A DNA stretch of 23,484 bases, from IMG/VR virus record IMGVR_UViG_3300046454_000472, positions 1 to 23,484 of that record. One strand, 5' to 3'. The notes below the pieces were generated by a model. That model saw only the letters and a list, made by a program, of their open reading frames with translations. It was not told the DNA's origin and searched no databases. Below are positions 954 to 23,484 of this stretch, piece after piece; position 1 is the first letter of the stretch, and each line of letters begins with the position of its first letter. This DNA is from a virus. The translations under genes were made by a program, and so were the position numbers.

Positions 954-955
954 AC

Positions 956-3167: not shown

Positions 3168-3170
3168 TCG

Positions 3171-4721: not shown

Positions 4722-4725
4722 GGCG

Positions 4726-8514: not shown

Positions 8515-8516
8515 CG

Positions 8517-10151: not shown

Positions 10152-10169
10152 AAGCCGGAGTGAACAGCC

Positions 10170-12377: not shown

Positions 12378-12459
12378 AAATAAGGAGCAGGGTGGCCCCG
12401 ATCAGGAGCCAAGGGGCTGCAGTGAACATGAGCCACAGCAGGCTGAAGAGCAGCTCCAT
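12352..12459 (-). CDS. 35-residue membrane peptide
   Basis: The frame encodes 35 residues starting MELLFSLLWLMF, with one long hydrophobic segment containing PWLLIGATLLLIF and a basic end (RSPPARR). The ATG follows the stop of the upstream 23-residue gene by one base (TAAGATG), so it is probably translated by coupling; no strong ribosome site of its own is visible. Its last 26 bases overlap, antisense, the end of the convergent ejection-like gene. It is the last gene of a four-gene - strand operon. The function is unknown. The hydrophobic core and basic tail would suit a small holin or a membrane-acting inhibitor. Confidence 0.5.
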   Translation of the reverse strand: MELLFSLLWLMFTAAPWLLIGATLLLIFRSPPARR

Positions 12460-12460
12460 C

Positions 12461-12532
12461 TTAGCCACACCTGCTGAATAGAAAGCCCATAAAAAGGCCG
12501 AAGAGGATACTTCCGATAAGCATGCCACACAT
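12461..12532 (-). CDS. 23-residue membrane peptide
   Basis: The frame encodes 23 residues, almost entirely hydrophobic (GMLIGSILFGLFMGFLF) with Cys at positions 2 and 22. The start has a very good ribosome binding site (GAAGGAG, six bases upstream on the - strand). It sits between a 62-codon gene and a 35-codon membrane gene in the same direction, with gaps of only a few bases. No function can be assigned. The binding site is the main argument that it is translated. Confidence 0.5.
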   Translation of the reverse strand: MCGMLIGSILFGLFMGFLFSRCG

Positions 12533-12543
12533 TTTGTTCTCCT

Positions 12544-12732
12544 TCAGACCATAACGAGGCCGATGTGCTCGCCAGTCTCACGTTTCATGATTTCGATGCG
12601 CCAGCAGCCGTTGATCCGCTTGCTGGACCGGATCGGCTTGTGAGCGCGGTCCGGGTGTCTGCCGTCGAGAATTTCAGCAATGCGCTTGGCGTCCTCGAGG
12701 CGGATGATCTTGTAGGGGACCGGGCCCGGCAT
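12544..12732 (-). CDS. Small hypothetical protein
   Basis: The 62-residue protein begins MPGPVPYKIIRLEDAKRIAE, continues with a charged stretch containing HPDRAHKPIRSSKRING, and ends with strands CWRIEIMKRETGEHIGLVMV. It is soluble and basic. Its start overlaps the preceding stop (TGATG at 12730-12734 on the - strand), indicating coupling to the 85-residue gene upstream. The family was not recognised. As part of the unit controlled by the promoter at 13013-13041, it is likely expressed early. Confidence 0.65.
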   Translation of the reverse strand: MPGPVPYKIIRLEDAKRIAEILDGRHPDRAHKPIRSSKRINGCWRIEIMKRETGEHIGLVMV

Positions 12733-12989
12733 CAGCGGATCTTGGTCTGCAGATTGAAAGCCCGGTCATTGGCCTTGATGTATTTGCGCAGCTTGCGGTC
12801 TGCTTTTTCTTGGGCGATGCGCCAGTTGATGCGAGCCTCGTCCAGCTCAGTGAACCGAATTTCGGTAGGCGGAACGCCACTCTCTATACATTTCGCGATG
12901 ACGTCTTTTGCAAGCTGTTCAGTTGGTTCGGTCGCCGCCACGACCCAGTATTTTTTGCCCTTGGGCTTCACATCAATCAAAAACGGCAT
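12732..12989 (-). CDS. Small hypothetical protein, first gene of a four-gene operon
   Basis: The 85-residue protein has a strand-rich start (MPFLIDVKPKGKKYWVVAAT), a helix (EQLAKDVIAKCIESG), a strand (TEIRFTEL) and a long charged C-terminal helix (EARINWRIAQEKADRKLRKY). The order beta-alpha-beta-alpha suggests a small alpha/beta domain of unknown function. A strong ribosome site (GAAGGAG) precedes the ATG. It is the first gene after the - strand promoter at 13013-13041 and is translationally coupled to the next gene. It may modify host processes, but that is only inferred from its place in a small early-type operon. Confidence 0.7.
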   Translation of the reverse strand: MPFLIDVKPKGKKYWVVAATEPTEQLAKDVIAKCIESGVPPTEIRFTELDEARINWRIAQEKADRKLRKYIKANDRAFNLQTKIR

Positions 12990-13012
12990 ATCGTTCTCCT
13001 TCCGATGTCCAT

Positions 13013-13041
13013 AAGCTACGACAGCCGTATTCGCCTGTCAA
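13013..13041 (-). promoter_or_regulatory. Promoter with palindromic operator (copy A)
   Basis: On the - strand TTGACA (13041-13036) is followed after 17 bases by TAGCTT (13018-13013), a sigma70-like arrangement reading into the 12989 gene. The spacer carries the shared core CGAATACG. Bases 13020-13039 form a near-perfect palindrome, GACAGCCGTATTCGCCTGTC, with 16 of 20 positions symmetric. The site also lies upstream of the divergent fibre gene, so it could act in both directions. Confidence 0.65.
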
Positions 13042-13076
13042 CTATCTTCTAAGGGGGCGCTGCGGAGGGCCCGGCC

Positions 13077-14084
13077 ATGGTCAACAGCTTCACCTACACC
13101 ACGAACAAAAACATCATAAAGCCAGCGTTCAACAACACTGGCTGGGATGTGCCCCTCAATCAGAATTTTGACATGATCGATGCTGCGCTTGGTGCGACGC
13201 AGGCTATGAATCTCCAAGGAAACCTTCTTACCGATATTCTTCTCACAAAGACGTGGCCACTAGATCCGGGCGGGGTTCTTGCTAACGCGAGTTGCATCCC
13301 CATGAGATTGGCGCTGACTGGCGCAGTGACTCAGAACACGTACATCCACGTCCCAGCAGCGACCAATGGCCTTTGGGTTGTGTCAAATAACACTACATCA
13401 GCAAGTGGCTTTAACGTATTTTTTGGCGGATCTGCGACCCAGATATTGGTTTCGAGAAACCAGTCTACGCTAATATGGTGTGACGGCGGCGGGGCGCTTC
13501 TGCTTGGCTCTTCTGGCATCACTTCCGCAACTTTTGCAGTCGGAGACTACAAGCACTCCGCGGCTCCAGCTGCACAAAGTGGGTGGCTTCTGTGCAACGG
13601 TCAGGCAGTTCCTCGCACAACGTACAGCGCATTGTTTGCGGCCATCGGCGGCTATTACGGCGTTGGCGACGGCTCGACCACTTTCAACGTCCCGAATCTG
13701 ATTGGTCGCGTGCTGTCTCATGCTGACCAGAATCAAGGCGTCACGCCGGGCGTTAATTTCGCTCAAGCTGGCGGTGTTTCAGCTGTCACTTTGGACATCA
13801 GCCAGATCCCTTACCATGACCATGGCGGCGGCAACCATCTTCATGGCGCATATCAAGCCGCCCACCAGCATGGCATCGGAGGAATCCTCTCCAACCAAAA
13901 CCAAGCGCCGGGGGCTCAGTACGGTCCCAGCTGGCAGTTCCAGACTGTTTACTCTGACTGGCAGCAGCCAGCTGTCACTATCGGCTACAGCGGCAACACC
14001 ATAGGCGGTCAAGGCAGCAACGGCGGCCACACCAACGTGCAGCCGTCGCTTGGCTGTTACATTTTCATCTACGCAGGCGTGTGA
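13077..14084 (+). CDS. Tail fibre protein with phage tail collar domain
   Basis: The 335-residue protein has an N-terminal attachment region (NIIKPAFNNTGWDVPLNQNF), a strand-rich middle, and a phage tail collar domain from about residue 155. Visible there are SGWLLCNGQAVPRTTYSALF, then GDGSTTFNVPNLIGRVL. A His/Gly-rich segment follows (YHDHGGGNHLHG, then HQHGIGG), as is usual in such receptor-binding fibres where His clusters bind metal in the trimer. The C-terminus (NVQPSLGCYIFIYAGV) is the typical end of collar fibres. GGAGG lies about ten bases before the ATG. The gene is isolated between two - strand units and probably specifies host binding. Confidence 0.85.
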   Translation: MVNSFTYTTNKNIIKPAFNNTGWDVPLNQNFDMIDAALGATQAMNLQGNLLTDILLTKTWPLDPGGVLANASCIPMRLALTGAVTQNTYIHVPAATNGLWVVSNNTTSASGFNVFFGGSATQILVSRNQSTLIWCDGGGALLLGSSGITSATFAVGDYKHSAAPAAQSGWLLCNGQAVPRTTYSALFAAIGGYYGVGDGSTTFNVPNLIGRVLSHADQNQGVTPGVNFAQAGGVSAVTLDISQIPYHDHGGGNHLHGAYQAAHQHGIGGILSNQNQAPGAQYGPSWQFQTVYSDWQQPAVTIGYSGNTIGGQGSNGGHTNVQPSLGCYIFIYAGV

Positions 14085-14505
14085 ACGGGGCGGCGTAGGC
14101 GATCGAGCTGTGATGCTCGCAGTAGGGCGGATCATATGTGGTCACGCCGCAATAGCGCATACTGAGCTTGACGCCCTCGATCGGCCACCGGCATGACGTG
14201 TTTTTCAGCTCATAGATCCCCAAGCCTTCCGGCGGCGGCGGAGGCGGCTCTGGCGCTTTTGGCACCTTCGGCGGTCTCGGCGGCCTCGGCGGCGGGCGCT
14301 TGAACGTCAGGGGCCGGTGGCCGCGAGTGATCGCCACCCTGCCCCGCAGACGATGGACAACCCCCGAGACTGCGCTGCGCGTCATGCCAAGCTCGCCAGC
14401 AATGATGCCAGTGCTTTTGCCCTCGTTCCACAGCTCGATGACTTTCAGGCTTCTCTCGGGGATTGGCTCGGGTTCGAGCGTCAATAGGACAGCGTACCGG
14501 CCCAA
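14065..14505 (-). CDS. GcrA-family cell-cycle / transcription regulator
   Basis: The 146-residue protein matches GcrA, an alphaproteobacterial cofactor of sigma70 RNA polymerase that acts at methylated GANTC promoters. Residues 17-55 form a helix-turn-helix (LWNEGKSTGIIAGELGMTRS, then AVSGVVHRL). Residues 70-92 are a Pro-rich linker. The C-terminal part has the GcrA signature CRWPI (105-109), YCG (118-120) and PYCEHHSSIAY (127-137). The start is uncertain: TTG at 14505 follows a GAAGG element, but TTG at 14484 overlaps the upstream stop and gives a protein beginning MTLEPEPIPERSLK, which fits GcrA N-termini equally well. It is the last gene of the long - strand operon and overlaps the fibre gene by 20 bases. 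Confidence 0.8.
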   Translation of the reverse strand: MGRYAVLLTLEPEPIPERSLKVIELWNEGKSTGIIAGELGMTRSAVSGVVHRLRGRVAITRGHRPLTFKRPPPRPPRPPKVPKAPEPPPPPPEGLGIYELKNTSCRWPIEGVKLSMRYCGVTTYDPPYCEHHSSIAYAAPFTRLRR

Positions 14506-14867
14506 GGAGCCGCCTTCGAAAAGTGGTCGGTAGGCATCCGCGGCGCAGGATCGAACAGCAGCGAGTGATCAAACACCAGCGGCGCGACTACCTTGACCTT
14601 GGCCAGCTTGTATTCGGCAGGCTTCTGCGCAGTGATGGCGGGCTCGACGGGCTCGGGCATGGGCGCAGGCTCGACATAGCGCCGGTGGTGGCGACGGTGC
14701 CATACCTGCAGCCCGGGGGCCGCTGCATGGAACACAGGGGCCGCGTGGCGCACGTGGACGCCGCGGCTCATGCCATAGAGGCTGAGCTGCCCATGGTTGT
14801 GGTGCCGGGCCTGCGCCCCGCTCGAAATGAGGACTGTGGCGAAAACGACTAGAGTGATGCGGCGCAT
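14481..14867 (-). CDS. Exported His/Pro-rich small protein
   Basis: The 128-residue protein begins with a clear Sec signal peptide (MRRITLVVFATVLISSGAQA), followed by a His-rich segment (RHHNHG, then WHRRHHRRY) and a Pro/Glu-rich part (EPAPMPEPVEPA). The mature protein is basic and has no recognised domain. GAAGGAG lies upstream of the ATG. Its end overlaps the GcrA-like gene. It lies downstream of the endolysin and may act at the envelope, for example as a spanin-like or accessory lysis factor, but there is no lipobox, so the role is open. Confidence 0.7.
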   Translation of the reverse strand: MRRITLVVFATVLISSGAQARHHNHGQLSLYGMSRGVHVRHAAPVFHAAAPGLQVWHRRHHRRYVEPAPMPEPVEPAITAQKPAEYKLAKVKVVAPLVFDHSLLFDPAPRMPTDHFSKAAPWAGTLSY

Positions 14868-14877
14868 GATTTCTCCT

Positions 14878-14961
14878 TCATTGCGTGACTAGGATGATGA
14901 TGGCGATCAGGATTACGATGGGGGCGACGATGAAGCCGCAGATGAAGCCGATCCAGAACAT
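14878..14961 (-). CDS. 27-residue hydrophobic peptide, candidate holin
   Basis: The frame encodes 27 residues, nearly all hydrophobic (MFWIGFICGFIVAPIVILIA, then a further Ile/Leu run and VTQ). AGAGG lies about eight bases upstream. The first 49 bases overlap the end of the 91-residue gene in a different frame. The stop is ten bases before the next start and lies within that gene's ribosome site. The location two genes after the endolysin suggests a holin or pinholin, but this is inferred from context only. Confidence 0.5.
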   Translation of the reverse strand: MFWIGFICGFIVAPIVILIAIIILVTQ

Positions 14962-15188
14962 TTCAGGGCCTCTCGGACGTCGTGGGCAAACTGGTTGTTG
15001 ATCTTGGCCAGTTCGATCATGGCGTGCCGACGGTTGTAGCAGAAACAATCGTTGCCGTGGTGTCGTCCGGCGTTGGTCGGGATTAGCATGCAATCGGAGC
15101 TGGCGCAGGGTGTGAGCTTACTGATGGCGGCGTCTCGAGCCCACAAGGCTACGGTGATCCAGTCAGTATGGTCAGGGGCCTGCGCCAT
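14913..15188 (-). CDS. Small Cys/His-containing hypothetical protein
   Basis: The 91-residue protein has five cysteines (C28, C33, C48, C50, C76) with nearby histidines, in the segments TPCASSDCMLIP and GRHHGNDCFCYNRRH. The arrangement could bind a metal. A helical stretch follows (AMIELAKINNQFAHDVREAL) and then a Ser/Ala-rich end. There is no signal peptide. TAGGAGG lies five bases before the ATG, a strong start. It is directly downstream of the endolysin, with a gap of nine bases. The family was not recognised. Its 3' part is overlapped by the 27-residue membrane gene. Confidence 0.65.
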   Translation of the reverse strand: MAQAPDHTDWITVALWARDAAISKLTPCASSDCMLIPTNAGRHHGNDCFCYNRRHAMIELAKINNQFAHDVREALKCSGSASSAASSSPPS

Positions 15189-15197
15189 CTTTGCCTC

Positions 15198-15704
15198 CTA
15201 CGCACGGCGATCGGGGCGCACAAAGGCCACGACGCGGTTCATGGTATAGACGCGCCGGTTGACGTTATGATTCTGGTTGCCGCCGAGCCCCACGATGCGG
15301 CCCATCTTGTCGAAGCCCGCAAAGATCGTGACGTGGTGCCTCATGACGACCAGATCACCCGGGACCGGGTTGGTCACACGTTGCCCATCATAAAGCTTAT
15401 CGATCGCCGCGAGCGAATCATTATGCTTATATCCGGCCTCCGACATAATCTTATTGGTGAAGGCGGCGCACCACTTTCCGTTGAAGCCGGTGACATTGCC
15501 GCGGCCTACGTAGTGTTCTGCGACCTCGAGGAGGCCGGTGCGGCCCATGACCATGCGTGGCGCGAACAGGGCTGCAAAAGCCTCGAAGGGATTTGAGAAC
15601 GCAGACGCTGCTGGAGGGGCTGCGTGATGGCGATGAAGGTGGGGCCGGGCATACGCCTGCGATGCCGCCATGATGATGGCGACAGCCAACAAAATTTTCT
15701 TCAC
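15198..15704 (-). CDS. Exported endolysin (TIGR02594-like, NlpC/P60-CHAP type)
   Basis: The 168-residue protein probably cleaves peptidoglycan at lysis. It starts with a Sec-type signal peptide ending SQAYA, then a His-rich linker, then a cysteine peptidase or amidase-like domain. Key features are WCAAF with C79 as the likely nucleophile, PVPGDLVVMRHHVTIF with H123 or H124 as the likely partner, and GGNQNHNV (about 141-148), a pattern characteristic of TIGR02594 proteins. The GTG at 15704 is chosen because GGAG lies six bases upstream; the TTG four codons earlier overlaps that ribosome site. The signal peptide implies Sec-dependent export rather than strict holin dependence. Confidence 0.8.
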   Translation of the reverse strand: MKKILLAVAIIMAASQAYARPHLHRHHAAPPAASAFSNPFEAFAALFAPRMVMGRTGLLEVAEHYVGRGNVTGFNGKWCAAFTNKIMSEAGYKHNDSLAAIDKLYDGQRVTNPVPGDLVVMRHHVTIFAGFDKMGRIVGLGGNQNHNVNRRVYTMNRVVAFVRPDRRA

Positions 15705-15738
15705 GATGCACTCCAAGGGATTTTATAGGGGAGGGGAA

Positions 15739-15765
15739 GGCCGCTGGGGAAGGCTCCCAGCGGCC
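15739..15765 (-). other. Strong hairpin between Gly-rich gene and endolysin gene
   Basis: A perfect 10-base inverted repeat (15739-15748 with 15756-15765, arms GGCCGCTGGG and CCCAGCGGCC) has a 7-base loop. In the - strand transcript it lies between the Gly-rich gene and the endolysin gene. It is followed by a C/T-rich stretch rather than a clean T run, so it is a weak terminator candidate or a processing/stability element. Confidence 0.6.
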
Positions 15766-15774
15766 CCGGTCAGG

Positions 15775-16143
15775 TTAGTGACCCGCGACGCCGCCACCGA
15801 CAGCGATCACGCTCGAGCCGCCCGACGTGGTCGAACCGGCGATGCCATTGCCCGAAGACGCGGCAAGGGTGCTGGAGGTGGACGAAGCCGTGCCAGCTCC
15901 GCCACCGCCCGCGATGGACGGACCGAAGAAGCCGCCAACGGCGACGCCGCCACCACCGGCAACGCCGGTCGCGCCAGCGGTCGTGCCGCCGATCGCGGAG
16001 GCATGACCCAGCGAGCCCGTCACGGTCGTGGAGTGCGAGTTGGTGATGACGGCCCCGCCGCCAACGCCGAACGCAGTGACCTGCGCGAAAGCCGGAGCCG
16101 CGAACAGAGCCAGCGCGCTGGCGAGAACAAGGATCTTTTTCAT
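15775..16143 (-). CDS. Exported Gly/Ser/Ala-rich small protein
   Basis: The 122-residue protein has a clear signal peptide (MKKILVLASALALFAAPAFA). The mature part is built almost only of Gly, Ala, Ser, Thr and Val (GVAGGGGVAVGGFFGP, STTSGGSSVIAVGGG), with no cysteine. Such composition suggests a flexible or self-associating envelope protein. Start ATG 16143 is chosen because TAAGGA lies about eight bases upstream; a frame open further upstream would have no signal peptide at its start. It is preceded by a structured 311-base leader and followed by a strong hairpin, so it may be regulated as a separate transcript segment. Function unknown. Confidence 0.65.
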   Translation of the reverse strand: MKKILVLASALALFAAPAFAQVTAFGVGGGAVITNSHSTTVTGSLGHASAIGGTTAGATGVAGGGGVAVGGFFGPSIAGGGGAGTASSTSSTLAASSGNGIAGSTTSGGSSVIAVGGGVAGH

Positions 16144-16242
16144 GCGTATTTTCCTTAACTTCACGTGAATTACCGGGGAGACCGCCCCGGCGCGGATTCC
16201 TTTCAAGACCACTGGCCAACCTGAAACCGCGTAGGAAGGGTC

Positions 16243-16322
16243 GGCCAGTGGCTTGCTTGCTTTCGTGCTAGACCCGTTCAGTAAAATCCAACACGCCTCG
16301 GCTCTCCACAGAGGGACGCAAG
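16243..16322 (-). repeat. Structured repeat unit 1
   Basis: On the - strand the unit begins CTTGCGTCCC, contains an inner CGTG...CACG pairing, and ends CACGAAAGCAAGC. The terminal CTTGC and GCAAG can pair. Unit 2 at 16382-16453 has the same ends and a similar length, but its interior differs. Confidence 0.55.
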
Positions 16323-16381
16323 TTCGAAACTCATGGCCGCCGATCTGGGAGGGGTCAAGCCCTTCTCCCTACGCGATCGGC

Positions 16382-16453
16382 GGCCAGCTTGCTTTCGTGG
16401 CAGCTGATGAGCTAACCCGCCACGCCCGCCAGTTGCAAAAGCGGGGACGCAAG
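16382..16453 (-). repeat. Structured repeat unit 2
   Basis: On the - strand the unit begins CTTGCGTCCC directly after the stop of the exported Asn/Ser-rich gene and ends CACGAAAGCAAGC. Its inner hairpin is longer (CGTGGC with GCCACG, plus AGCT with AGCT around a CATC loop) than in unit 1. The 13 bases GCTTGCTTTCGTG (+ strand) are identical in both units. Confidence 0.55.
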
Positions 16454-16454
16454 A

Positions 16455-17249
16455 TTAGTTGGAGGCCATCTTCACGCAGACGCCCGCGTCAGCGGACTTG
16501 CGCGCCCCCTTTTCGCCGCAAGAGGCGACGACATACTGGTGCCCTTTCTTGTCGAAGTAAGCGGCGGCCTTCAGATCGGTCGCCTTCAGCTCACGAGACT
16601 TTTCGCCGGGGACCGGGCCATGGTACTCGCCCTTGAAGACCGGGTGGCCATAGGGCTCGGCGACGGCGACCGTGGCATAGCGACCGACGCGGCAGCGGAC
16701 GCCGCCAGCGGTCATCGAGACGGCCAGCTCATCGTCCATACAGAGCGTCTGCAACGCGGCTTCGCGCTGTCCAAAAGCCCACAAGGTACGGGCATTGAGC
16801 CTTTTGTTGCAGGGGCCATCCTGCCAAGGAAAACCCAGCGCGCCGCCGCCTCCCACAGCGGCACCGCCCAGCGAGACGGAGCCGTTGCAGGACTCGATGC
16901 CCGCGGCGCTCATGCCGGGCGCAAACACCGCCGGGGACTGGCCGGTGGTGGTCGAGTTGAAAGTGTTGGTGTTGGCCGCGCCAGACTGGTTGGCGTTGAC
17001 CGAACGGACGCCGACATTCTGGCTCGAATTGATCCGCGAATTGACGTTGGAGCGCGAGGCCGAATTGGAGTTGGAGTTTGCCCCGGAGAACGCGGTGTTG
17101 CGATTGTTCTGGACGGGGTCGGCGACAGCAGCGGAGCTGGAGCGCGAGTTGGAGATACCGGTTCCGACGCCGATGGCGTTCTGCGCCAGCGAAGGGGTGA
17201 CGCCGATCGCGATCATCGCGAAAGCGGTAGCAATGCTCTTAACTTTCAT
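16455..17249 (-). CDS. Exported Asn/Ser-rich protein with six cysteines
   Basis: The 264-residue protein has a signal peptide (MKVKSIATAF, then AMIAIGVTPSLA). The mature N-terminal half (about 24-105) is rich in Asn and Ser (SGANSNSNSASRSNVNSR). The C-terminal half has six cysteines (C121, C147, C170, C186, C244, C258) and looks like a compact disulfide-bonded domain (LGFPWQDGPCNKRLNARTLW, then QREAALQTLCMDDELAVSM). GGAGGAA lies seven bases before the ATG. It is the first of four exported proteins encoded in a row. An envelope or surface-exposed role, such as superinfection exclusion, is possible, but the family was not recognised. Confidence 0.7.
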   Translation of the reverse strand: MKVKSIATAFAMIAIGVTPSLAQNAIGVGTGISNSRSSSAAVADPVQNNRNTAFSGANSNSNSASRSNVNSRINSSQNVGVRSVNANQSGAANTNTFNSTTTGQSPAVFAPGMSAAGIESCNGSVSLGGAAVGGGGALGFPWQDGPCNKRLNARTLWAFGQREAALQTLCMDDELAVSMTAGGVRCRVGRYATVAVAEPYGHPVFKGEYHGPVPGEKSRELKATDLKAAAYFDKKGHQYVVASCGEKGARKSADAGVCVKMASN

Positions 17250-17289
17250 ACTTTCTTCCTCCGGTGTCCATGGCGATGGCCATGTTTCT

Positions 17290-17529
17290 TCATGATTCGG
17301 CTATAGTCAAGTCAGGTTCTGTTTCCCCAATGTCATACTTCACGCCACAAAAGGGGCAGAACGTCGGAACTACGAGTGGCAGTTTTTGCGGCCCGTAGCG
17401 ATTAATTTTTTCAGTCGATAGCAGCGTAGGAATCGCCACCAAATGACCTCTGACGATGCGGAAAGCGCAAGCCAGCCTAGTGTTCTTTTCAACCAGCATC
17501 TCGTTCATGTTGCTGGCGCAGTCACACAT
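17290..17529 (-). CDS. Small zinc-ribbon-like protein
   Basis: The 79-residue protein has cysteines at 2, 4 and 21 and a CPFC knuckle at 58-61 in the context VVPTFCPFCGVKYD. The pairs CxC and CxxC could together bind one zinc ion. The ATG at 17529 follows the upstream stop by one base and has GGGGAAG before it. The longer frame from 17559 starts inside the upstream gene and is less likely. Small phage zinc-ribbon proteins often bind host proteins or nucleic acid. No specific role can be given. Confidence 0.65.
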   Translation of the reverse strand: MCDCASNMNEMLVEKNTRLACAFRIVRGHLVAIPTLLSTEKINRYGPQKLPLVVPTFCPFCGVKYDIGETEPDLTIAES

Positions 17530-17530
17530 T

Positions 17531-17686
17531 CTAGTGCTTCCCCAAGATCCAGCCGCCAAAGACCCATCCGGCTGCGCCGAACGCGATGATGTCGATGGCG
17601 ATCAGCAGGATCAGCGCGGTCCCGATCATGCGATCGTTCCGGCTCATGTGCCGTTCCAACTGTTCTAGTTGCTCGGCGTCGATCAT
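17531..17686 (-). CDS. 51-residue membrane protein, holin candidate
   Basis: The frame encodes 51 residues: a charged, helical N-terminus (MIDAEQLEQLERHMSRNDRM), a hydrophobic segment (IGTALILLIAIDIIAFGAAG) and a second, shorter one (WVFGGWILGKH). The start overlaps the MazG-like gene's stop (ATGA) and its stop is followed by the next ATG after one base, so it is locked into the operon. One or two membrane spans with a cytoplasmic charged head fit a small holin or a membrane regulator. The endolysin is several genes downstream in the same operon. Function inferred only. Confidence 0.65.
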   Translation of the reverse strand: MIDAEQLEQLERHMSRNDRMIGTALILLIAIDIIAFGAAGWVFGGWILGKH

Positions 17687-18147
17687 CCGTGCAGCCTCGT
17701 CCTGAAGCCCAGCTTTTCGCTGGTCGCATTGAATTTTTCGAAGATGGCCCGGTCAAGGTCGATGCCAGACTTGATGGCCAGCAGCGAGACGTAGATCACC
17801 ACATCGGCCAGTTCAGTGGCCAGATCGGCGATGGTGGCGCGCGAGCCCTCGAGGCCAAGGCGTTCACGCTCGAGCTTTTTGACGACGTTGCAGGCTTCGC
17901 CCATCTCACCGGCGGCGGCGTTGCCGAAGTAGGACAGGTCGAGCTTGTCGCTGTTTTTCCATTCGAGCTGGCGGGCGATGTTGGCCTGCTCCAGCGTGTC
18001 ATAGAAAATGGGCGGATTCTGCTCGGGCTCGAGCTTCCCCTTCGTCTCTTCGATGGCGTCAGCGATCATGCGGTAGGCAACGCCATGAGCCAATCCCGCC
18101 TGCTGGGAAAGGACGGTGGCGGCGGCTACGATTTCCACGTGCTTCAT
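17683..18147 (-). CDS. MazG-like nucleoside triphosphate pyrophosphohydrolase
   Basis: The 154-residue protein resembles all-alpha NTP pyrophosphohydrolases of the MazG superfamily, which hydrolyse (d)NTPs or alarmone-related nucleotides to monophosphates using magnesium. The metal-binding pattern is visible: EMGE (E81, E84), then acidic residues after KKLERE, and ELADV (E112, D115). The C-terminal helix pattern (LDRAIFEKFNATSEKLGF) is also typical. The first 65 residues are an extra helical region. Start and stop overlap both neighbours as ATGA. Phage MazG-like proteins are thought to adjust nucleotide pools or ppGpp levels in the infected cell. The exact substrate is unknown. Confidence 0.8.
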   Translation of the reverse strand: MKHVEIVAAATVLSQQAGLAHGVAYRMIADAIEETKGKLEPEQNPPIFYDTLEQANIARQLEWKNSDKLDLSYFGNAAAGEMGEACNVVKKLERERLGLEGSRATIADLATELADVVIYVSLLAIKSGIDLDRAIFEKFNATSEKLGFRTRLHG

Positions 18148-18350
18148 TTCGCGTTTTCCTTGTTGACGATGACCAAGTCGCGGCGGATTTTCTGACGCCG
18201 GGCGGCCTCAATGTCAGCGGCCCAGTTGTCAATGTTGTGTTTCATGTAGCAGCGGGCGCGGGCCAGCACGGATTCAAGGTCGGGACAGTCATCGAGCGCC
18301 TTGCACATGGCCACGATGTTGGCTTCTCTTTCGACGTAAGGCGATGCCAT
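18144..18350 (-). CDS. Small hypothetical helical protein
   Basis: The 68-residue protein is helical and charged (YVEREANIVAMCKALDDCPD, then ESVLARARCYMKHNIDNW), ending in a basic segment RRQKIRRDLVIVNKENAK. The ATG at 18350 follows the upstream stop by one base (TAACATG). An ATG at 18371 is possible but lies inside the upstream gene without a ribosome site. The stop overlaps the MazG-like start. The family was not recognised; it may work with the MazG-like enzyme given the coupling. Confidence 0.6.
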   Translation of the reverse strand: MASPYVEREANIVAMCKALDDCPDLESVLARARCYMKHNIDNWAADIEAARRQKIRRDLVIVNKENAK

Positions 18351-18351
18351 G

Positions 18352-18561
18352 TTAAGCGGTCTCTCTTGCATTTCGGATGAATCGCCGCGTCAGGGCGATG
18401 GTGTTGGCGAGGCCGCGGTAATCCGACGACGTTTTGGGGCAGACGATCATTGGGATGCCGGGGGCTCTGATCTTGAAGTTTTTCCCGAACGTCACCTCTG
18501 GTTGGTGGCCAGCTTGCACGAGCAGCTCCACCGCGGCTTTGGCTTCCTTGGATAGCCTCAT
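18352..18561 (-). CDS. Small HicA-like (dsRBD-fold) protein, tentative
   Basis: The 69-residue protein has the order helix (SKEAKAAVELLVQAG), strand-turn-strand (HQPEVTFGKNFKIRAPGIPM), strand (IVCPKTSS) and a C-terminal helix (LANTIALTRRFIRNA). The short Gly-His, Gly-Lys and terminal Arg-rich helix pattern recalls HicA-type small RNA-binding folds. The usual catalytic histidine of HicA toxins is not seen, since Asn follows GK where His is expected, and no HicB partner is adjacent. The ATG at 18561 follows the upstream TGA by two bases. Treat this as a phage protein with a possible nucleic-acid-binding fold, not a toxin. Confidence 0.45.
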   Translation of the reverse strand: MRLSKEAKAAVELLVQAGHQPEVTFGKNFKIRAPGIPMIVCPKTSSDYRGLANTIALTRRFIRNARETA

Positions 18562-18563
18562 GG

Positions 18564-18788
18564 TCAGCGCACCAAGCCGCAGGAGCCGCTGCGCTCGGAA
18601 CTGACGAGCCAAGCCATGCAGTCTTTGCCGACGCACCGGCACAGCTCCCTGTCCTGTGCAAAAGAAGTCTGGGATGTCATGCGGTCGCCGCGGTTGGTGA
18701 TGGTTAGAGAATCAATGTTTGGGGCTGCACTGACGCTGGTGAAAGGGCACCATTTTTCTTTGGCCTCTTTTTCTAAAATCACTGCCAC
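18564..18788 (-). CDS. Small Cys-rich phage protein (KWCPF...CMAW...CGL type)
   Basis: The 74-residue protein has cysteines at 14, 50, 52, 57 and 70 in the contexts KWCPF, LCRCVGKDCMAW and GSCGL. This spacing is that of a recurring phage family of probable metal-binding proteins of unknown role. The start is GTG at 18788, chosen because GAAGGAG stands seven bases before it. Upstream lies a pair of competing hairpins that could control its translation. The next gene begins two bases after its stop. Confidence 0.7.
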   Translation of the reverse strand: MAVILEKEAKEKWCPFTSVSAAPNIDSLTITNRGDRMTSQTSFAQDRELCRCVGKDCMAWLVSSERSGSCGLVR

Positions 18789-18813
18789 GCCGTTCTCCTT
18801 CGGTGTCGTAGCG

Positions 18814-18864
18814 CCGGGAGGACGAGACGCCTCCCGGGCATTGCATATTTCAGGGCGTCTCGTC
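18814..18864 (-). promoter_or_regulatory. Two mutually exclusive hairpins before the Cys-rich gene
   Basis: Hairpin one pairs 18814-18821 with 18830-18837 (CCGGGAGG/CCTCCCGG, 8-base loop). Hairpin two pairs 18821-18831 with 18854-18864 (GACGAGACGCC/GGCGTCTCGTC, 11 bases). They share bases, so only one can form. The 18854-18864 arm lies in the last codons of the 38-residue gene, so translation of that gene could decide the outcome. Confidence 0.55.
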
Positions 18865-18966
18865 AGTGGCCTCCATGTCGGCGACCACGCCCAAATCCAA
18901 GTTCAACTTGAGGCTGATCCTGAAAGTCTTGAAGAAAGTCTTGAGGAAGGCGAGAATTTCGAACAT
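18850..18966 (-). CDS. 38-residue small protein or leader peptide
   Basis: The frame encodes 38 residues: a hydrophobic and basic start (MFEILAFLKTFFKTFRIS) that could form an amphipathic helix, then LKLNLDLGVVADMEA and an acidic end (TDETP). The ribosome site AAAGGAGGG is among the best in the window. Its last codons take part in the alternative hairpins before the next gene. It may be a true small protein or a leader peptide controlling downstream translation. The spacing to its neighbours is normal for this operon. Confidence 0.6.
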   Translation of the reverse strand: MFEILAFLKTFFKTFRISLKLNLDLGVVADMEATDETP

Positions 18967-18984
18967 TTCGCCCTCCTTTCTGTG

Positions 18985-19245
18985 TCAGGCAGTGGCCTCT
19001 CCGGCCATGTTGCGGGTATTGGCTTTCACGACGTCAACAAAGACGGCGAGCAACTTCTGACGCTCGTCTTCGCTTTTGTCAGTCATGAAGTTGGCCAAAG
19101 TAAACGCCATGCTGTTAAGCACGGTGTCGATTTCGTGTCCGTGGAAAATCATGTTGATTTCAACGGCTAGAGCCTCGACAGCTTTACGCTGCGGGTCATC
19201 TGGCTCCAAAACGTGTGAGTTTATTTCGAATTGTCGGTCGCTCAT
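18985..19245 (-). CDS. Hypothetical helical protein, first gene of the long operon
   Basis: The 86-residue protein is acidic and mostly helical (KAVEALAVEINMIFHGHEID, then TDKSEDERQKLLAVFVDVVK). It has no cysteines, membrane spans or recognised motif. AGGTG lies about five bases before the ATG. The predicted transcript start from the promoter at 19272-19300 gives a short leader of about 20 bases. As first gene of a unit of about fifteen genes, it is probably expressed early and strongly. Function unknown. Confidence 0.65.
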   Translation of the reverse strand: MSDRQFEINSHVLEPDDPQRKAVEALAVEINMIFHGHEIDTVLNSMAFTLANFMTDKSEDERQKLLAVFVDVVKANTRNMAGEATA

Positions 19246-19271
19246 CAGGCACCTGTTGTGTTGGTCTGTGT

Positions 19272-19300
19272 AGGCTAGGACAGGCGTATTCGGGTGTCAA
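19272..19300 (-). promoter_or_regulatory. Promoter with palindromic operator (copy D)
   Basis: On the - strand TTGACA (19300-19295) is followed after 17 bases by TAGCCT (19277-19272), reading into the 19245 gene and the long operon. The spacer contains CGAATACG. Bases 19279-19298, GACAGGCGTATTCGGGTGTC, are an imperfect palindrome (14 of 20 positions symmetric). The site starts four bases beyond the VRR-NUC stop codon. Confidence 0.7.
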
Positions 19301-19303
19301 CCC

Positions 19304-19681
19304 TCAATCGAGACCAAATCTGAAAATTAATCCCTCGATCTGGGAAGGCGTGCGAACGAGCACATAGACGCCGCCATTTTCTGTCCAGCGAATCTCAAAG
19401 CCTTCCTGATCATCGGATTGCCGACCTTTTTTGCGTGTTTTCAGCTCGACAGCGATCGCCAGCCCCCGGCATAGCAGGATGAAATCAGCTACGCCACGCC
19501 GCACGCCCATTTTTCTGAGGCGCGCGGCGGTCGCCTTGCTGCGTTTCCCGCCATTGGGGACGTGAAACCACACGGTCTTTTTACACGCGCGCGTGAACAC
19601 AGCCGCAGCGTGCATCTGCAGCGTGTCTTCGACATAATCGACCAGATCGCGTGGATCAGCCGTGTTTGGCAAGATATTCAT
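19304..19681 (-). CDS. VRR-NUC domain nuclease
   Basis: The 125-residue protein is a stand-alone VRR-NUC nuclease, a PD-(D/E)XK-type fold found in phage Holliday-junction or structure-specific nucleases and in FAN1. Visible features are HVPNGGKRSKATAARLRKMG (40-59), GVADFIL with D66, and AVELKT with E79 and K81 as the catalytic E-x-K. It ends after a typical strand and helix (VYVLVRTPSQIEGLIFRFG). The ATG at 19681 overlaps the RHH gene by 26 bases; the longer open frame upstream lies wholly inside that gene and is unlikely. It may process replication or recombination intermediates together with the helicase and the DUF2800 nuclease. Confidence 0.85.
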   Translation of the reverse strand: MNILPNTADPRDLVDYVEDTLQMHAAAVFTRACKKTVWFHVPNGGKRSKATAARLRKMGVRRGVADFILLCRGLAIAVELKTRKKGRQSDDQEGFEIRWTENGGVYVLVRTPSQIEGLIFRFGLD

Positions 19682-19865
19682 CGATCGCCAGCTGGACGAC
19701 GTGCGACACGCTGTTGATGTCCGGGTCTTTGCGAAACAGTAATTTGATCGCATCCTTCTTTCTAGGGCTGATGCGAACCGTCATGACCACCATCGGTTCG
19801 ATGACCGGAGCGGGCGTCTGCTCTGCCACAGGCACAAAGGGCGGGACTTCCATTACTTTTGTCAC
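19656..19865 (-). CDS. Ribbon-helix-helix DNA-binding protein
   Basis: The 69-residue protein has a disordered Pro-rich N-terminus and a C-terminal ribbon-helix-helix domain: strand VMTVRIS (27-33), helix PRKKDAIKLLFRK and helix SVSHVVQLAIDEYLAKHG (52-69). Such proteins bind DNA as dimers with the strand in the major groove. The GTG at 19865 is preferred because the - strand promoter at 19894-19922 would start transcription near 19887, downstream of a possible ATG at 19907. AGAAAGGA lies nine bases before the GTG. ATG 19853 is the alternative. It lies next to three copies of the shared operator and is a candidate regulator of that set. Confidence 0.7.
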   Translation of the reverse strand: MTKVMEVPPFVPVAEQTPAPVIEPMVVMTVRISPRKKDAIKLLFRKDPDINSVSHVVQLAIDEYLAKHG

Positions 19866-19893
19866 TGAGTTAAATCCTTTCTTGCGTTTCACG

Positions 19894-19922
19894 AACCCTA
19901 CGTGCATCGTATGCGCTTGTCA
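19894..19922 (-). promoter_or_regulatory. Promoter with shared core (copy E)
   Basis: On the - strand TTGACA (19922-19917) is followed after 17 bases by TAGGGT (19899-19894), reading into the RHH and VRR-NUC genes. The spacer contains CGCATACG, then ATGCACG. It includes TACG-N5-CGTA, the same inverted pattern as copy A. It lies between the divergent RHH and helicase genes. Confidence 0.65.
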
Positions 19923-19939
19923 ATTACAGGAGCAGAATC

Positions 19940-21394
19940 GTGAATTTGCATTTTGACGAGCAGATCCTGTCAGTCACCCTGCGCCGACACCAAAATGAGG
20001 CTGTTGACGCCCTCGCCACCGCTCCCTACCAATTCGCGTACGCTGAAATGTCGGTCGCCTCTGGCAAGTCGCTGGTCATGGGCAGTCTGGCCAAGCGAGC
20101 CCTGCTCCGACCGCGCAACCGGGTGATGATCGTCGCCCACACTGAAGAACTGGTCAAACAGAACGCCCACGCCTGCAAGTGGCTTGGCCTTAACCCTGCC
20201 ATCTGCAGCGCCGCGCTGGGCCAGTCTTCGGTCTTCGCCGATCTGACGGTCGGCACCGTCGGCACGATCGCCAAACGGCTCAACTATTTTCAGGACGTCA
20301 GCGCGGTGATCGTTGACGAGGTGCACCGGGCGCGCATGGAGGAGAACAAAGACGGCTCGGCCTCGCTCTACCTGCGGATCAAGGATGGCCTGCCCAACGC
20401 CTTTTTCCGCGGCGTGACCGGCACTGGCTGGCGCGAGGACGGCACCGGGTCGCTCGAGAACACATTCGGCCACAAAGTTTACAACTATGGCTTCATCGAG
20501 GCGCTCGAGGACGGCTACGTCAAGCCGCTGCGAGCGGTCCCAGCTGAAGCCAAAGACTTTGACACCAAGGGCCTGAAGACCAATTCGCAAGGTGAGTGGT
20601 CTGGGCAGGAGCTGACCAATCGAGGCGTGGCGCTGGCCCCAGAGCACGCTGTCGCCTTGCTGGCCGCCATGCGGGAGGAAGACCGCCACCGGGCGCTGAT
20701 CTTCGCCTGTGACATCGAGCACGCCAACGCCCTCGAGGCCGAGCTGCGCAAGCTTGGCGTTGACGCCCGGGCGGTCCACACCGGCAACGGCGGGCGCGTG
20801 GCCAATGTCGAGGCGTTTCGCAAGGGTGCTTTTGAGATTCTGGTTTCGGTGGCGATGTTTAACGTAGGCTTTGATGTGCCCGATATTGATTTCATGGCGT
20901 TCTGCCGCCCGATGAAGTCTGCCCTGCTCTACGCCCAGTCGCTGGGCCGCGGCGCGCGCCTGTCCGAGCTGGCCTATGATTGTGTCGTCTGCGATTTTGG
21001 CGGCAACATCCTCCGCCACGGCGCGCTCGACATGATCAAGCCGCCCAAGCGCCGGGCTCAGAACGGACCAACGGTAGGTGCCGAGCCTGATGACGACGTG
21101 CCCAAGCTTGACGAGATAGACCGCATGGTCGGTGGCGATCTGCGCAAGGGAGCTGCCGAAGGCTCGCTGCTGTCGCGCCATGGCAAGCCGAAATGGGTCG
21201 AGCCGTCTGGCGACCCTACCTATTTGATTGGGCGCAATCTTTGGCTGATCCCGACTGTCACGCTGGGGCAGGTGCGTTGGTTTTCGCCTTCCTATCCGCT
21301 CGATGCCAAGCATCTTTTTTGCGAATATGATGGCCGCCGCGGCTGGACAGCTCGAGGCGCAGTTGATAGCGTGGGCATCCTTCACAAGGCTTGA
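19940..21394 (+). CDS. Superfamily 2 DNA helicase (DEVH box)
   Basis: The 484-residue protein is a compact SF2 helicase using ATP to unwind or remodel DNA during replication or recombination. Motifs in order are a Q-like RRHQNEAV (15-22), Walker A MSVASGKS (37-44), motif Ia VAHTEEL, Walker B DEVH (126-129), motif III TGTGWR (160-165), motif V SVAMFNVGFDVPDID (303-317) and motif VI QSLGRGAR (333-340). The final 140 residues are a family-specific extension. The start is GTG at 19940, with AGGAG seven bases upstream. Its stop codon lies inside the TTGACA of regulatory copy B. Close relatives act in phage replication modules with DUF2800 and DUF2815 genes, as seen here. Confidence 0.9.
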   Translation: MNLHFDEQILSVTLRRHQNEAVDALATAPYQFAYAEMSVASGKSLVMGSLAKRALLRPRNRVMIVAHTEELVKQNAHACKWLGLNPAICSAALGQSSVFADLTVGTVGTIAKRLNYFQDVSAVIVDEVHRARMEENKDGSASLYLRIKDGLPNAFFRGVTGTGWREDGTGSLENTFGHKVYNYGFIEALEDGYVKPLRAVPAEAKDFDTKGLKTNSQGEWSGQELTNRGVALAPEHAVALLAAMREEDRHRALIFACDIEHANALEAELRKLGVDARAVHTGNGGRVANVEAFRKGAFEILVSVAMFNVGFDVPDIDFMAFCRPMKSALLYAQSLGRGARLSELAYDCVVCDFGGNILRHGALDMIKPPKRRAQNGPTVGAEPDDDVPKLDEIDRMVGGDLRKGAAEGSLLSRHGKPKWVEPSGDPTYLIGRNLWLIPTVTLGQVRWFSPSYPLDAKHLFCEYDGRRGWTARGAVDSVGILHKA

Positions 21395-21433
21395 CAAGCG
21401 AATACGATCGTAGTCAGCTAGACAGGCGAATAC
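21391..21433 (+). promoter_or_regulatory. Tandem copies of the shared regulatory core (copies B and B2)
   Basis: TTGACAAGCGAATACG begins at 21391 and overlaps the helicase stop codon. A second copy, TAGACAGGCGAATAC, begins 28 bases later at 21419. The first copy also contains the palindrome TACGATCGTA. No good -10 box lies 17 bases from TTGACA. TAGTCA (21411-21416) with TTTAAT (21434-21439), 17 bases apart, is a possible promoter flanked by the two cores. Confidence 0.55.
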
Positions 21434-21457
21434 TTTAATCACCAGAAAGAGGCAGAC

Positions 21458-21949
21458 ATGGGTAAAATTACGATTTCCGGCGACACGCTGGAGGAAATCA
21501 GCGACACGCTCGATATGCTGTTTGGAACTGCTGGCCCGGCTCCGACAGGCCCGGAAGTTGCTGCGGCGGCTCCGAAGGCGACCCGCACGCGCACCAGCAG
21601 GAAGGCTGAAGCTCCGGCTCCGGCGCAGCCGAACGAGGCGCAGGCGGCCCAGCCGTCCAACCCGTTCACCGCCCAGCAGCCCCAGCAGCCGCAACAGCAG
21701 CCCTTCGCACCCGGCGCTGGCCCCTTTGCTCCCAATGGCGCAGCGGAACGCCCGGCGGTCACCCAGCTGAAAAATCTGCTCAACACGCTTTCGGCCCAGC
21801 ATGGCGAGCCGCAGGTCTATGCATGGTGCATGCAGCGGGCGCTCAACCTGCCGCCGACGGTGACCAAGGAACATTTCCTGAGTGACGTCATCTACACGGT
21901 GCCGGATGAAAAACTGATCGAAATCTACAAGACGGGCGGCGGCGCTTAA
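21458..21949 (+). CDS. Hypothetical replication-module protein with Pro/Gln-rich linker
   Basis: The 163-residue protein has a short N-terminal segment (MGKITISGDTLEEISDTLDM), then a basic patch with ATRTRTSRKAEAPAPAQ. A low-complexity linker of Pro, Gln and Ala (about 45-95) follows, and then a C-terminal helical domain (QLKNLLNTLSAQHGEPQVYA, then WCMQRALNLPPTVTKEHFLS). AGAGG precedes the ATG. It is followed by a clear terminator. The linker tethering two small domains suggests a protein-protein or DNA-binding adaptor for the helicase or nuclease next to it, but the family was not recognised. Confidence 0.7.
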   Translation: MGKITISGDTLEEISDTLDMLFGTAGPAPTGPEVAAAAPKATRTRTSRKAEAPAPAQPNEAQAAQPSNPFTAQQPQQPQQQPFAPGAGPFAPNGAAERPAVTQLKNLLNTLSAQHGEPQVYAWCMQRALNLPPTVTKEHFLSDVIYTVPDEKLIEIYKTGGGA

Positions 21950-21970
21950 AAAGCTGTCAAGCTAAAATTA

Positions 21971-21999
21971 GGGTCATCCTACTAGGATGGCCCTTTTTT
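21971..21999 (+). terminator. Rho-independent terminator
   Basis: A 9-pair stem (GGGTCATCC with GGATGGCCC, one G-T pair) and a TACTA loop are followed by six T at 21994-21999. It ends the 21458 gene 21 bases after its stop and lies directly before the DUF2800 gene's ribosome site. Confidence 0.85.
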
Positions 22000-22016
22000 A
22001 ATTGGAGGAGAACCTA

Positions 22017-23018
22017 GTGGGACGACACGCGAATTTTGCCCCCAGCAGCGCCGCACGCTGGCTGAATTGCCCCTACAGCGCCATCATCGGCGCAACCCTG
22101 CCAAATGTGGACAGCGACGCCTCGAGGGAGGGCACGCGAATCCACGCCCTGATCGAGACCGCGATCTTTGGCGCGCCCATCCCTGACGAGGAAAGCGACG
22201 ACGTGGCCTATGGCGTCGAGCTGGTGCTGGACTTCATCCGGCAGCTGGGCGGGCCTACGTCGGTGCTGGTCGAGCGTCAGGTGCGCCTCAATGACGACGT
22301 CTGGGGCACTGCTGACATCATGCAGCCCAAGCCTGACATCACCACGCTGGTTGATTACAAGAACGGCGCGATGGACATCCTCGTCGATCAGAACATGCAG
22401 CTTATGACTTATGACGTGGCGATTCTGGAAGAATTTGGCCCGTCGAAATTCTACCGCAATGTGATCATTCAGCCGAACAGCCGGACAGCTGGCGATCAGC
22501 CCGACGTCAAGCAGACGATTGTGCCGCTCGAGGCGGTGGAGTTTCACCGCGAGCTGGTGCTCGATGCGGTCGATCGCGGTCTCGGCGGCGAGGGACCGAT
22601 CCCGGGCCGCCACTGCCGCTATTGCTCAGCTTTCGGCAACTGCCCGGCGACGCAGGAAATGCTGCCCATGATCATGACGTCGGTCAAATTCATGCCGACA
22701 GAAGTGCCGAGCGAGACGGCGGTGCGCCTGCTGCGCGTATTACGTGGCCTTGATGACTTCAGGAAAAATCTCGAGAAGGATCTGATGCGGCGCTTTGCCG
22801 CGGGCCAGAAAGTGCCCGACGCCAGCGTGGGCATCACTTCGACACATCGCAAGTGGCAGGACGATCGGCTGGCGGTCTCGCGGCTCATGACGGCCTTCGG
22901 GCTCAGCGGCGTGGATCCGGTCACACCGGCCACCGCAGAGAAAATGGGTGCGCAGGGCAAGGAAATTGTCAGCCAGCTGGCCTTCAAGCCGCCGGGCAAC
23001 GCCAAACTTGTGTATTGA
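22017..23018 (+). CDS. DUF2800 family Cas4/RecB-like nuclease
   Basis: The 333-residue protein belongs to the PD-(D/E)XK nuclease group of DUF2800, related to Cas4 and RecB nuclease domains. It begins NFAPSSAARWLNCPYS, typical for the family. Catalytic candidates are H43 (EGTRIHALIE), D100 (WGTADIM) and D113-x-K115 (LVDYKNG). C18 together with C200, C203 and C209 (HCRYCSAFGNC) reproduces the four-cysteine pattern of iron-sulfur nucleases. The GTG at 22017 is chosen because GGAGGAG lies six bases upstream; an in-frame TTG at 22002 lies before that site. In related phages it sits beside the DUF2815 protein, as here, and is thought to act in recombination or end processing. Confidence 0.85.
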   Translation: MGRHANFAPSSAARWLNCPYSAIIGATLPNVDSDASREGTRIHALIETAIFGAPIPDEESDDVAYGVELVLDFIRQLGGPTSVLVERQVRLNDDVWGTADIMQPKPDITTLVDYKNGAMDILVDQNMQLMTYDVAILEEFGPSKFYRNVIIQPNSRTAGDQPDVKQTIVPLEAVEFHRELVLDAVDRGLGGEGPIPGRHCRYCSAFGNCPATQEMLPMIMTSVKFMPTEVPSETAVRLLRVLRGLDDFRKNLEKDLMRRFAAGQKVPDASVGITSTHRKWQDDRLAVSRLMTAFGLSGVDPVTPATAEKMGAQGKEIVSQLAFKPPGNAKLVY

Positions 23019-23034
23019 CAACCGCATACGCTCG
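23015..23034 (+). promoter_or_regulatory. Shared regulatory core before the ssDNA-binding gene (copy C)
   Basis: TTGACAACCGCATACGCTCG starts at 23015 and includes the DUF2800 stop codon TGA. The core CGCATACG is the same as in copy E. No clear -10 box is found at 17 bases; TATTTT at 23045-23050 is the nearest candidate, with too long a spacer. Confidence 0.5.
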
Positions 23035-23052
23035 TGAAACTCTGTATTTTCT

Positions 23053-23092
23053 ACTGTGTGACTGTGTGAATGTGCAACAAAAACTGTGCAAC
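23053..23092 (+). repeat. Short tandem TGTG repeats in the leader of the ssDNA-binding gene
   Basis: ACTGTGTG occurs twice in direct succession (23053-23060, 23061-23068), and TGTGCAAC twice (23071-23078, 23085-23092). All lie in the 89-base gap before the start at 23108, just upstream of the ribosome site AAGGA (23095-23099). Confidence 0.7.
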
Positions 23093-23107
23093 GTAAGGAT
23101 GTTAAAA

Positions 23108-23484
23108 ATGGCTCGTGATCTTGTAAGCATCTATCTTTTCAACGGGCAGGCCGTGTTCTCCAAGCGCCTGTTTGAACCCGAAACCAAGGATATGGCGGGC
23201 AAGCCGCTCGACAGTCCCTCTTACAGCCTCCTCATCCGCTTCCCCAAGACTATGCCTAACTGGTATGATGAACCGGCGCTGCAGGGCTTCAAGGAAGCCT
23301 GCCAGACCGTCATGCTGCGCGAGCTGCCTAACGTGCCTTTCCCTTACATCGAATTTCCGGTTAAGGATGGCGACCGCCCGAACAGGAACGGCAAAATCCC
23401 TGACTGGGCTAAAGGCCACTGGTTTGTCCGGTCTTCGTCCACTTTCATCCCGACTGTCGAGCAGGTGGTCGGCGGCGTGAAAAC
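23108..23484 (+). CDS. Single-stranded DNA-binding protein, DUF2815 / Enc34 type (3' cut by window)
   Basis: The frame runs open from the ATG at 23108 past the window end, giving 125 visible residues. The family signature is clear: LLIRFPKTMPNWYDEPALQ, then ELPNVPFPYIEFPVKDGDRP, then PDWAKGHWFVRSSST. Proteins of this family (characterised in phage Enc34) have an OB-like fold and bind single-stranded DNA. AAGGA eight bases upstream supports the start. It is preceded by regulatory copy C and short tandem repeats. It follows the DUF2800 nuclease, the usual pairing in phage replication modules, where a DNA polymerase often comes next. Confidence 0.85.
   Translation, partial: MARDLVSIYLFNGQAVFSKRLFEPETKDMAGKPLDSPSYSLLIRFPKTMPNWYDEPALQGFKEACQTVMLRELPNVPFPYIEFPVKDGDRPNRNGKIPDWAKGHWFVRSSSTFIPTVEQVVGGVK

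Follow-up and report, generated by a model that had tools for sequence, protein, structure and literature searches.

A repeated element with partial symmetry in the sigma70-type promoters of a phage group, and its predicted reading by a phage-encoded regulator

Arc of phage P22 is a small ribbon-helix-helix (RHH) protein with very few operators; its operator lies between the −35 and −10 hexamers, and this repressor acts by blocking polymerase at a P22 promoter. The middle promoters of phage T4 also contain the site of a phage regulator within promoters of the host polymerase, with the MotA box replacing the −35 hexamer, and the regulator GcrA acts at promoters together with sigma70. In other phages one site recurs many times. 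Mycobacteriophages L5 and L1 and their cluster A relatives carry many dispersed repressor sites per genome, the stoperators, one of which overlaps an early promoter (PMC1934351, PMC6550527), and the intergenic repeat SPBRE of phage SPbeta was first spotted by sequence and later shown to be the site of the phage repressor MrpR (PMC10516654). Here we analysed a stretch of 23,484 nucleotides of DNA from an uncultured phage (positions 1–23,484 of IMGVR_UViG_3300046454_000472; hereafter the window) that carries dispersed copies of an element with the consensus TTGACA-N2-CGMATACG. This element is repeated, oriented, conserved and partly symmetric, and it forms part of the sigma70-type promoters of a phage group. 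We found no earlier description of it in the literature searched, which covers few subscription papers.

By analogy, the working principle of the element would be that of the L5 stoperators and of SPBRE and MrpR, in which there are many copies of one regulator site. As in L5, the copies are dispersed through one phage genome, and in cluster A, too, the motif and its repressor differ from one relative to the next. When read on its other strand, the L5 site, GGTGGCTGTCAAG, contains TTGACA. However, the L5 sites are asymmetric 13-mers that occur genome-wide, inside transcription units too, and also stop elongation, whereas the element described here is an imperfect 20-bp dyad located at promoters. 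L5 is temperate, whereas a tyrosine integrase profile (PF00589) matched nothing in the near-complete genome of our phage (G001, described below) or in seven relatives. The dyad-like sites, their promoter location and the lack of a detected integrase set the element apart from L5-type stoperators. SPBRE is likewise one element repeated in the intergenic regions of a phage, but it is a 15-bp motif with a recombinase-like reader in a temperate Bacillus phage. Arc resembles the present case in that our candidate reader would also be a small phage RHH-like protein acting at a promoter operator, although Arc has few operators rather than many, and the RHH-like protein is not detectably homologous to it at the Pfam level. 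Unlike at T4 MotA promoters, the −35 hexamer here is consensus.

A sequence-only reading of the window had listed five copies of the element and one degenerate copy. A mismatch-tolerant search recovered all of them where they had been placed, except that copy C begins one base away, at 19923 rather than 19922. The exact consensus occurs five times in the window and not once in 500 dinucleotide shuffles. The window has no CGMATACG octamer outside a motif copy. All three minus-strand copies have the TAGnnT that had been claimed after a 17-bp spacer. Copy A (13041–13013; motif 13041–13026) consists of TTGACA at 13041–13036, the core CGAATACG at 13033–13026, TGTC and the −10 hexamer TAGCTT at 13018–13013, and it precedes a minus-strand operon of small genes that starts at 12989 and has 12732–12989 as its first gene. 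Copy B (19300–19272; motif 19300–19285), with TTGACA, CGAATACG, TGTC and TAGCCT, lies 55 nt before the start (19245) of a long operon, and copy C (19923–19895; motif 19923–19908), with TTGACA, CGCATACG and TAGGGT, lies upstream of the RHH-like gene. The two plus-strand copies carry other hexamers at the −10 position instead of TAGnnT. Copy D (21391–21419; motif 21391–21406) combines TTGACA and CGAATACG with TCAGCT at 17 bp and lies 67 nt before the start of a linker-protein gene (21458–21949, plus strand), which has no family match and is syntenic with relatives. A degenerate, operator-like copy without its own −10 (D2; 21419–21434, plus strand; TAGACAGGCGAATACT, two mismatches) is located 28 bp 3′ of copy D. 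Copy E (23015–23043; motif 23015–23030) combines TTGACA and CGCATACG with AACTCT at 17 bp, 93 nt before the start (23108) of a single-stranded DNA (ssDNA)-binding-type gene. The TGA within TTGACA is the stop codon of the preceding helicase gene in copy D (21391–21396) and of the preceding exonuclease gene (22002–23018, plus strand; phrog_69) in copy E (23015–23020), so that these bases are common to promoter and reading frame.

G001 (IMGVR_UViG_3300046663_000089; 67,094 bp) is a near-complete genome of the same phage: it is 100% identical to the window over window positions 1–19926 and 19946–23484, and the arrangement of the two is compatible with a circular or permuted genome. Seven exact copies of the motif are present in G001, far above chance as in the window (mean 0.007 and maximum 1 in 300 shuffles). 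The genome-wide scan that the sequence-only reading had proposed was carried out with a position weight matrix (PWM) of the motif and revealed extra sites. Eight sites were strong, with scores of 36–44 compared with 16.1 for the best of 30 shuffles, the matrix having been trained on these same eight sites. Sites outside the window region lie at 48151 (minus strand), heading a small-gene operon that runs into the terminase genes, and at 48836 (plus), with variants at 48219 (minus; TCGACA), 56530 (minus; 18-bp spacer) and 58960 (minus; CGTAATACG). A further variant of G001 is at 65621 (minus). Beyond the variants, the next matches in G001 are at shuffle level, and the virion block has no convincing copy; the sequence-only reading had likewise noticed none with the TTGACA part there. 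Matches inside genes (G001 and the relatives G002 and G033), an isolated weak match in G032 and position 347 of G020 were discounted as products of chance or of conserved coding sequence.

All eight strong sites have a perfect TTGACA and a same-strand gene start 31–93 nt downstream; the 100-nt stretches before such gene starts take up only 6.2% of the strand positions. TANNNT follows at exactly 17 bp in six of the eight and at no other spacer length. This is the arrangement of a sigma70-type promoter, with a TTGACA-like −35 and a TATAAT-like −10 hexamer 16–18 bp apart; a generic promoter scan misses the sites because the −10 is weak. The units behind the strong sites are the RHH/VRR-NUC unit, the long operon, the small operon at 12989, the small-gene operon running into the terminase genes, an oppositely directed gene at 48916, an operon with a primase-like gene, the ssDNA-binding-type gene and the linker gene. 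Because the site at 48151 heads an operon that runs into terminase genes, a strictly early role is not proven. The sharing of the motif among promoters of nearly all non-virion genes most likely reflects joint control by one phage-made protein.

The arrangement of the copies also bears on the idea that the motif is a DNA-maintenance site, such as an iteron or a replication or packaging signal, that is located in intergenic DNA by chance. A perfect DnaA box (TTATCCACA) does lie between two copies in the intergenic region at 48.1–48.3 kb of G001, and likewise in G002, which also has tandem copies. Nevertheless, a maintenance site is extremely unlikely given that the copies are dispersed and gene-oriented and keep a fixed distance to the −10 and to the gene start. 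The region of the DnaA box is a divergent intergenic one (8136–8256 of contig L112, equivalent to 48.1–48.3 kb of G001) and a possible replication origin. The related records L196 and L200 have a TTATCCACA-like box beside their palindrome.

Related phages were fetched by means of the tail, exonuclease, helicase and RHH-like proteins and of a family that we call LADRYA. Orthologous sites were found in G002, G005, G020, G022 and G032–G035, and sites with a drifted core in L193–L195, where the core is CGAAYACG and the −10 is CTATAA. Copy B has orthologues in G005 and G035, copy D in G005, G032, G033 and G035, and copy E in G005, G032 and G033. Copy C has orthologues in G002, G005, G022, G032, G033 and G035 and a variant in L193; including G001, a motif copy thus precedes the RHH-like gene in all eight genomes with upstream sequence. 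The core of L193 changed in concert at several promoters, which is the expectation for sites of one regulator. As a host regulon the motif was not found: among bacterial and archaeal genomes totalling 257 Gb, an 18-letter form gave only six scattered single matches in unrelated phyla, which is chance level. So few matches make a host regulator or regulon unlikely. No homologues of the phage helicase were found in bacterial genomes.

Plain strong host-type sigma70 promoters, with a spacer that is kept through duplicated promoter cassettes and has no reader, would account for the TTGACA-N17-TA...T geometry, and common ancestry of the phages could explain the conservation. This explanation is improbable, as the flanks and downstream sequences of the copies are dissimilar within one genome, the core drifts jointly at several sites of the L193 group, and bacterial genomes lack such a spacer regulon. 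Moreover, the core is kept where the −35 is not consensus: the hexamer is GTGACA twice in G002, CTGACA in G005 and G034, TCGACA at a site common to G001 and G002, and TAGACA in another copy. Several copies without a −10 also keep GACA...TACG. The element is thus conserved independently of the sigma70 hexamers, and retention of GACA...TACG without the TT of the −35 or without a −10 indicates a constraint other than sigma70, so that the motif is more than a sigma70 promoter.

When the sites were aligned, they formed an imperfect 20-bp dyad, GACANNCGMA|TACGNNTGTC, that spans the −35 box and the spacer and has GACANNCGMA and GACANNCGTA as half-sites. Copy A, with half-sites GACAGGCGAA and GACAGCCGTA, is symmetric at 8 of 10 positions. 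We picked 32 non-redundant sites by the left half alone (GACA-N2-C[AG]..TACG) and scored TGTC at the mirror position of GACA, at least three of its four bases being required. TGTC was present in 9 of the 32, compared with 1.6 expected (P 2e-5), and no excess was seen at other offsets from −6 to +9. Mean symmetry was 5.2 of 10, compared with 2.7 for random windows. An inverted repeat at fixed spacing is therefore found above chance, with about a third of the sites being good dyads and the symmetry partial in about two thirds.

The weak −10 boxes (TAGnnT) admit another use of the site, in which a phage protein on the spacer would aid sigma70 as an activator in a switch to middle genes. Sites 21391 and 23015 are almost without a −10, and copies lie upstream of replication genes, which could be middle genes. 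We nevertheless think an activator site rather unlikely: most copies have a perfect TTGACA, a feature atypical of activator-dependent promoters, the L193-group variants combine the same element with a good CTATAA −10, and a dyad over the −35 and spacer better suits occlusion.

Relatives that lack the motif were surveyed for position-locked k-mers, and their elements were then listed directly. Five such genomes (G004, G008, G024, G025 and G028) have other repeated, mostly palindromic promoter elements in two to five copies each. G004 shares 79% identity in the tail protein with our phage, has different replication genes and contains no motif copy; five of its TTGAC promoters have a common GTTTAAAAC-type element at the −10, and three of these five precede homologues of G001 genes that lie near motif copies. 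In G024, CGGAAGN3CTTCCG occurs four times, three of them within the 17-bp spacer of TTGACA promoters, and in G008 both copies of GGTGAAN5TTCACC exactly fill a 17-bp spacer. GTTGACN5GTCAAC (three copies in G028) and TTGACN5GTCAA (two in G025) overlap the −35. In 100 shuffles of each genome the elements of G024, G028 and G008 did not occur, that of G025 occurred at most once, and the short element of G004 at most twice, compared with four observed. The LADRYA family is preceded by one element copy in each of the five genomes. When the promoters of one orthologous gene were tested singly for palindromes, the results were weak (P mostly 0.01–0.6), and so it is the repetition of an element within a genome that carries the claim across lineages; palindromes present in a single copy, in L198, L201 and L204, were not counted.

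The sequence-only reading had argued that a regulator, and not sigma70 alone, reads the spacer. This view is supported by the dyad at its exact offset, the core kept without −35 or −10, the sites kept at orthologous genes, the other repeated elements at the same position in similar promoters of motif-less relatives and the absence of the motif as a regulon from bacterial genomes. That a regulator encoded by the phage reads the element is, in our judgement, probable.

The best candidate reader is the product of the RHH-like gene downstream of copy C (19865–19656, minus strand), which would encode 69 amino acids from a GTG at 19865 (MTKVMEVPPFVP...PMVVMTVRIS...NSVSHVVQLAIDEYLAKHG). We placed the start there from relatives (MTKIDEVPPF in G005) and from the position of the promoter; an ATG at 19907 is an unlikely start, as it lies within the promoter. 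The second gene of the unit (19304–19753, minus strand; start probably 19681) encodes a VRR-NUC-like nuclease (phrog_824, 1e-25). A profile of the RHH-like protein matches every motif-bearing record whose sequence covers the locus, and elsewhere gave one distant match in G004 and one marginal match in G019; it had no match in 50,697 phage records. The order of its elements would be strand-helix-helix, and the predicted DNA-contact strand PMVVxTVR is nearly invariant, with V.TVR invariant across motif genomes. Confidence in the RHH fold assignment is moderate at best. G036 (IMGVR_UViG_3300046559_000446; 138,254 bp) has the RHH-like gene at two places, 1409 and 70707, which are 69.3 kb apart; this contig is possibly a concatemer in which a genome of roughly 69 kb is present as two units.

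Several observations weigh against an RHH-like reader of a symmetric operator. The protein has no Pfam match, and an hhalign comparison with an accepted RHH protein gave a P-value of 2.8e-4 but a probability of 41%, which is a weak match. The AlphaFold (AF2) monomer model has a mean predicted local distance difference test (pLDDT) score of 74, forms no strand and has no structural match, a monomer being uninformative here. The distant homologue in G004 has the same predicted contact residues (V.T.R) with a different promoter element. About two thirds of the sites, including copy C before the RHH-like gene itself, have a poor right half-site, and the sites are not independent, as the genomes are related. 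A further point is the co-occurrence of the motif with another small protein, a YdaS/Cro-like helix-turn-helix (HTH) protein of the primase operon (G001 54944–54651; PF15943, 4.8e-5), which is strongly found in the motif genomes G001, G002 and G032 alone and weakly in L193.

This HTH protein could itself be the reader of the same operator. Its gene is downstream of two motif copies, Cro-type dimers fit palindromic operators, and comparable small HTH genes are present in relatives that carry different elements (G004, G024, G025, G028 and G039–G042); early-region HTH genes of many relatives could co-diversify with operators. However, the gene is not adjacent to a motif copy, the protein was not seen in five motif records (fragmentary contigs), and its recognition-helix residues vary among G001, G002, G032 and L193 despite their common operator core. 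We regard it as an unlikely candidate, and the chances that the RHH-like protein is the reader as about even.

Many phages of this group encode GcrA-like proteins, and a GcrA-family gene (14065–14505, minus strand; PF07750, 6e-16) lies in the operon behind copy B. Its product together with sigma70 might read the spacer, in the manner of host GcrA at methylated GANTC sites. GcrA binding is reported to depend on CcrM methylation in Alphaproteobacteria (PMC7987155, PMC3667746), and the resemblance to GcrA–CcrM promoters is that this phage has a GcrA homologue. Unlike such promoters, the sites here lack GANTC, none being found in the five window promoters, and GcrA and the motif are not co-distributed: GcrA passes the cut-off in 19 of the 35 related phage records, but most of these 19 have no motif, and in G004 GcrA is present while the motif is absent. 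On these grounds GcrA is disfavoured as the reader, and control of this type seems very improbable. The occurrence of GcrA in 19 of the 35 records suggests that the hosts are Alphaproteobacteria and that the role of GcrA is not connected with the motif.

The best overall explanation, to which we give roughly even chances, is an operator read by an autoregulated RHH-like repressor. Host RNA polymerase would use TTGACA-N17-TAGnnT, which is known as sequence alone, and the motif would be an operator built into these sigma70-type phage promoters. A phage-encoded dimeric DNA-binding protein would recognise the overlapping 20-bp imperfect dyad and control about ten transcription units with replication, nuclease and small genes. 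If the reader is the RHH-like protein behind its own copy C, it would be autoregulated. Bound across the −35 box and the spacer, the protein would obstruct polymerase, and the promoters would be shut down or metered as it accumulates. Given a phage regulator, repression is fairly likely as the mode of action. In this way a repeated string from metagenomic DNA would become a regulon that can be put to the test, with some ten targets, an operator prediction and a specific candidate for its regulator.

The differing elements in similar promoters suggest operator turnover as in phage immunity systems. It is conceivable, although we hold this tentatively, that the lineages of these environmental phages form specificity groups like immunity groups, each with its own regulator–operator pair at the −35 or −10 of like early promoters. 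The RHH-like protein would be paired with GACANNCGMATACGNNTGTC, and the other operators would be CGGAAGN3CTTCCG, GGTGAAN5TTCACC, GTTGACN5GTCAAC and the GTTTAAAAC element; no one regulator family was found across all lineages. If true, lineage-specific pairs could, in the absence of lysogeny, provide superinfection exclusion or shield early transcription against rival phages. The different elements at equivalent promoters of relatives offer a natural series for co-change of regulator and operator specificity, and the group is suited to asking whether phages without a detectable integrase have immunity-like specificity groups.

Two further genes were noted. G001 62015–62620 (minus strand) is MT-A70-type adenine methyltransferase-like, with a DPPW motif identified by eye, and has homologues in G002 and G004. 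Within the virion block, window positions 4230–4721 (plus strand) hold an acetyltransferase-like gene that is named as a putative acetyltransferase in MW202675 and has orthologues in G003, G004, G005, G020 and G022.

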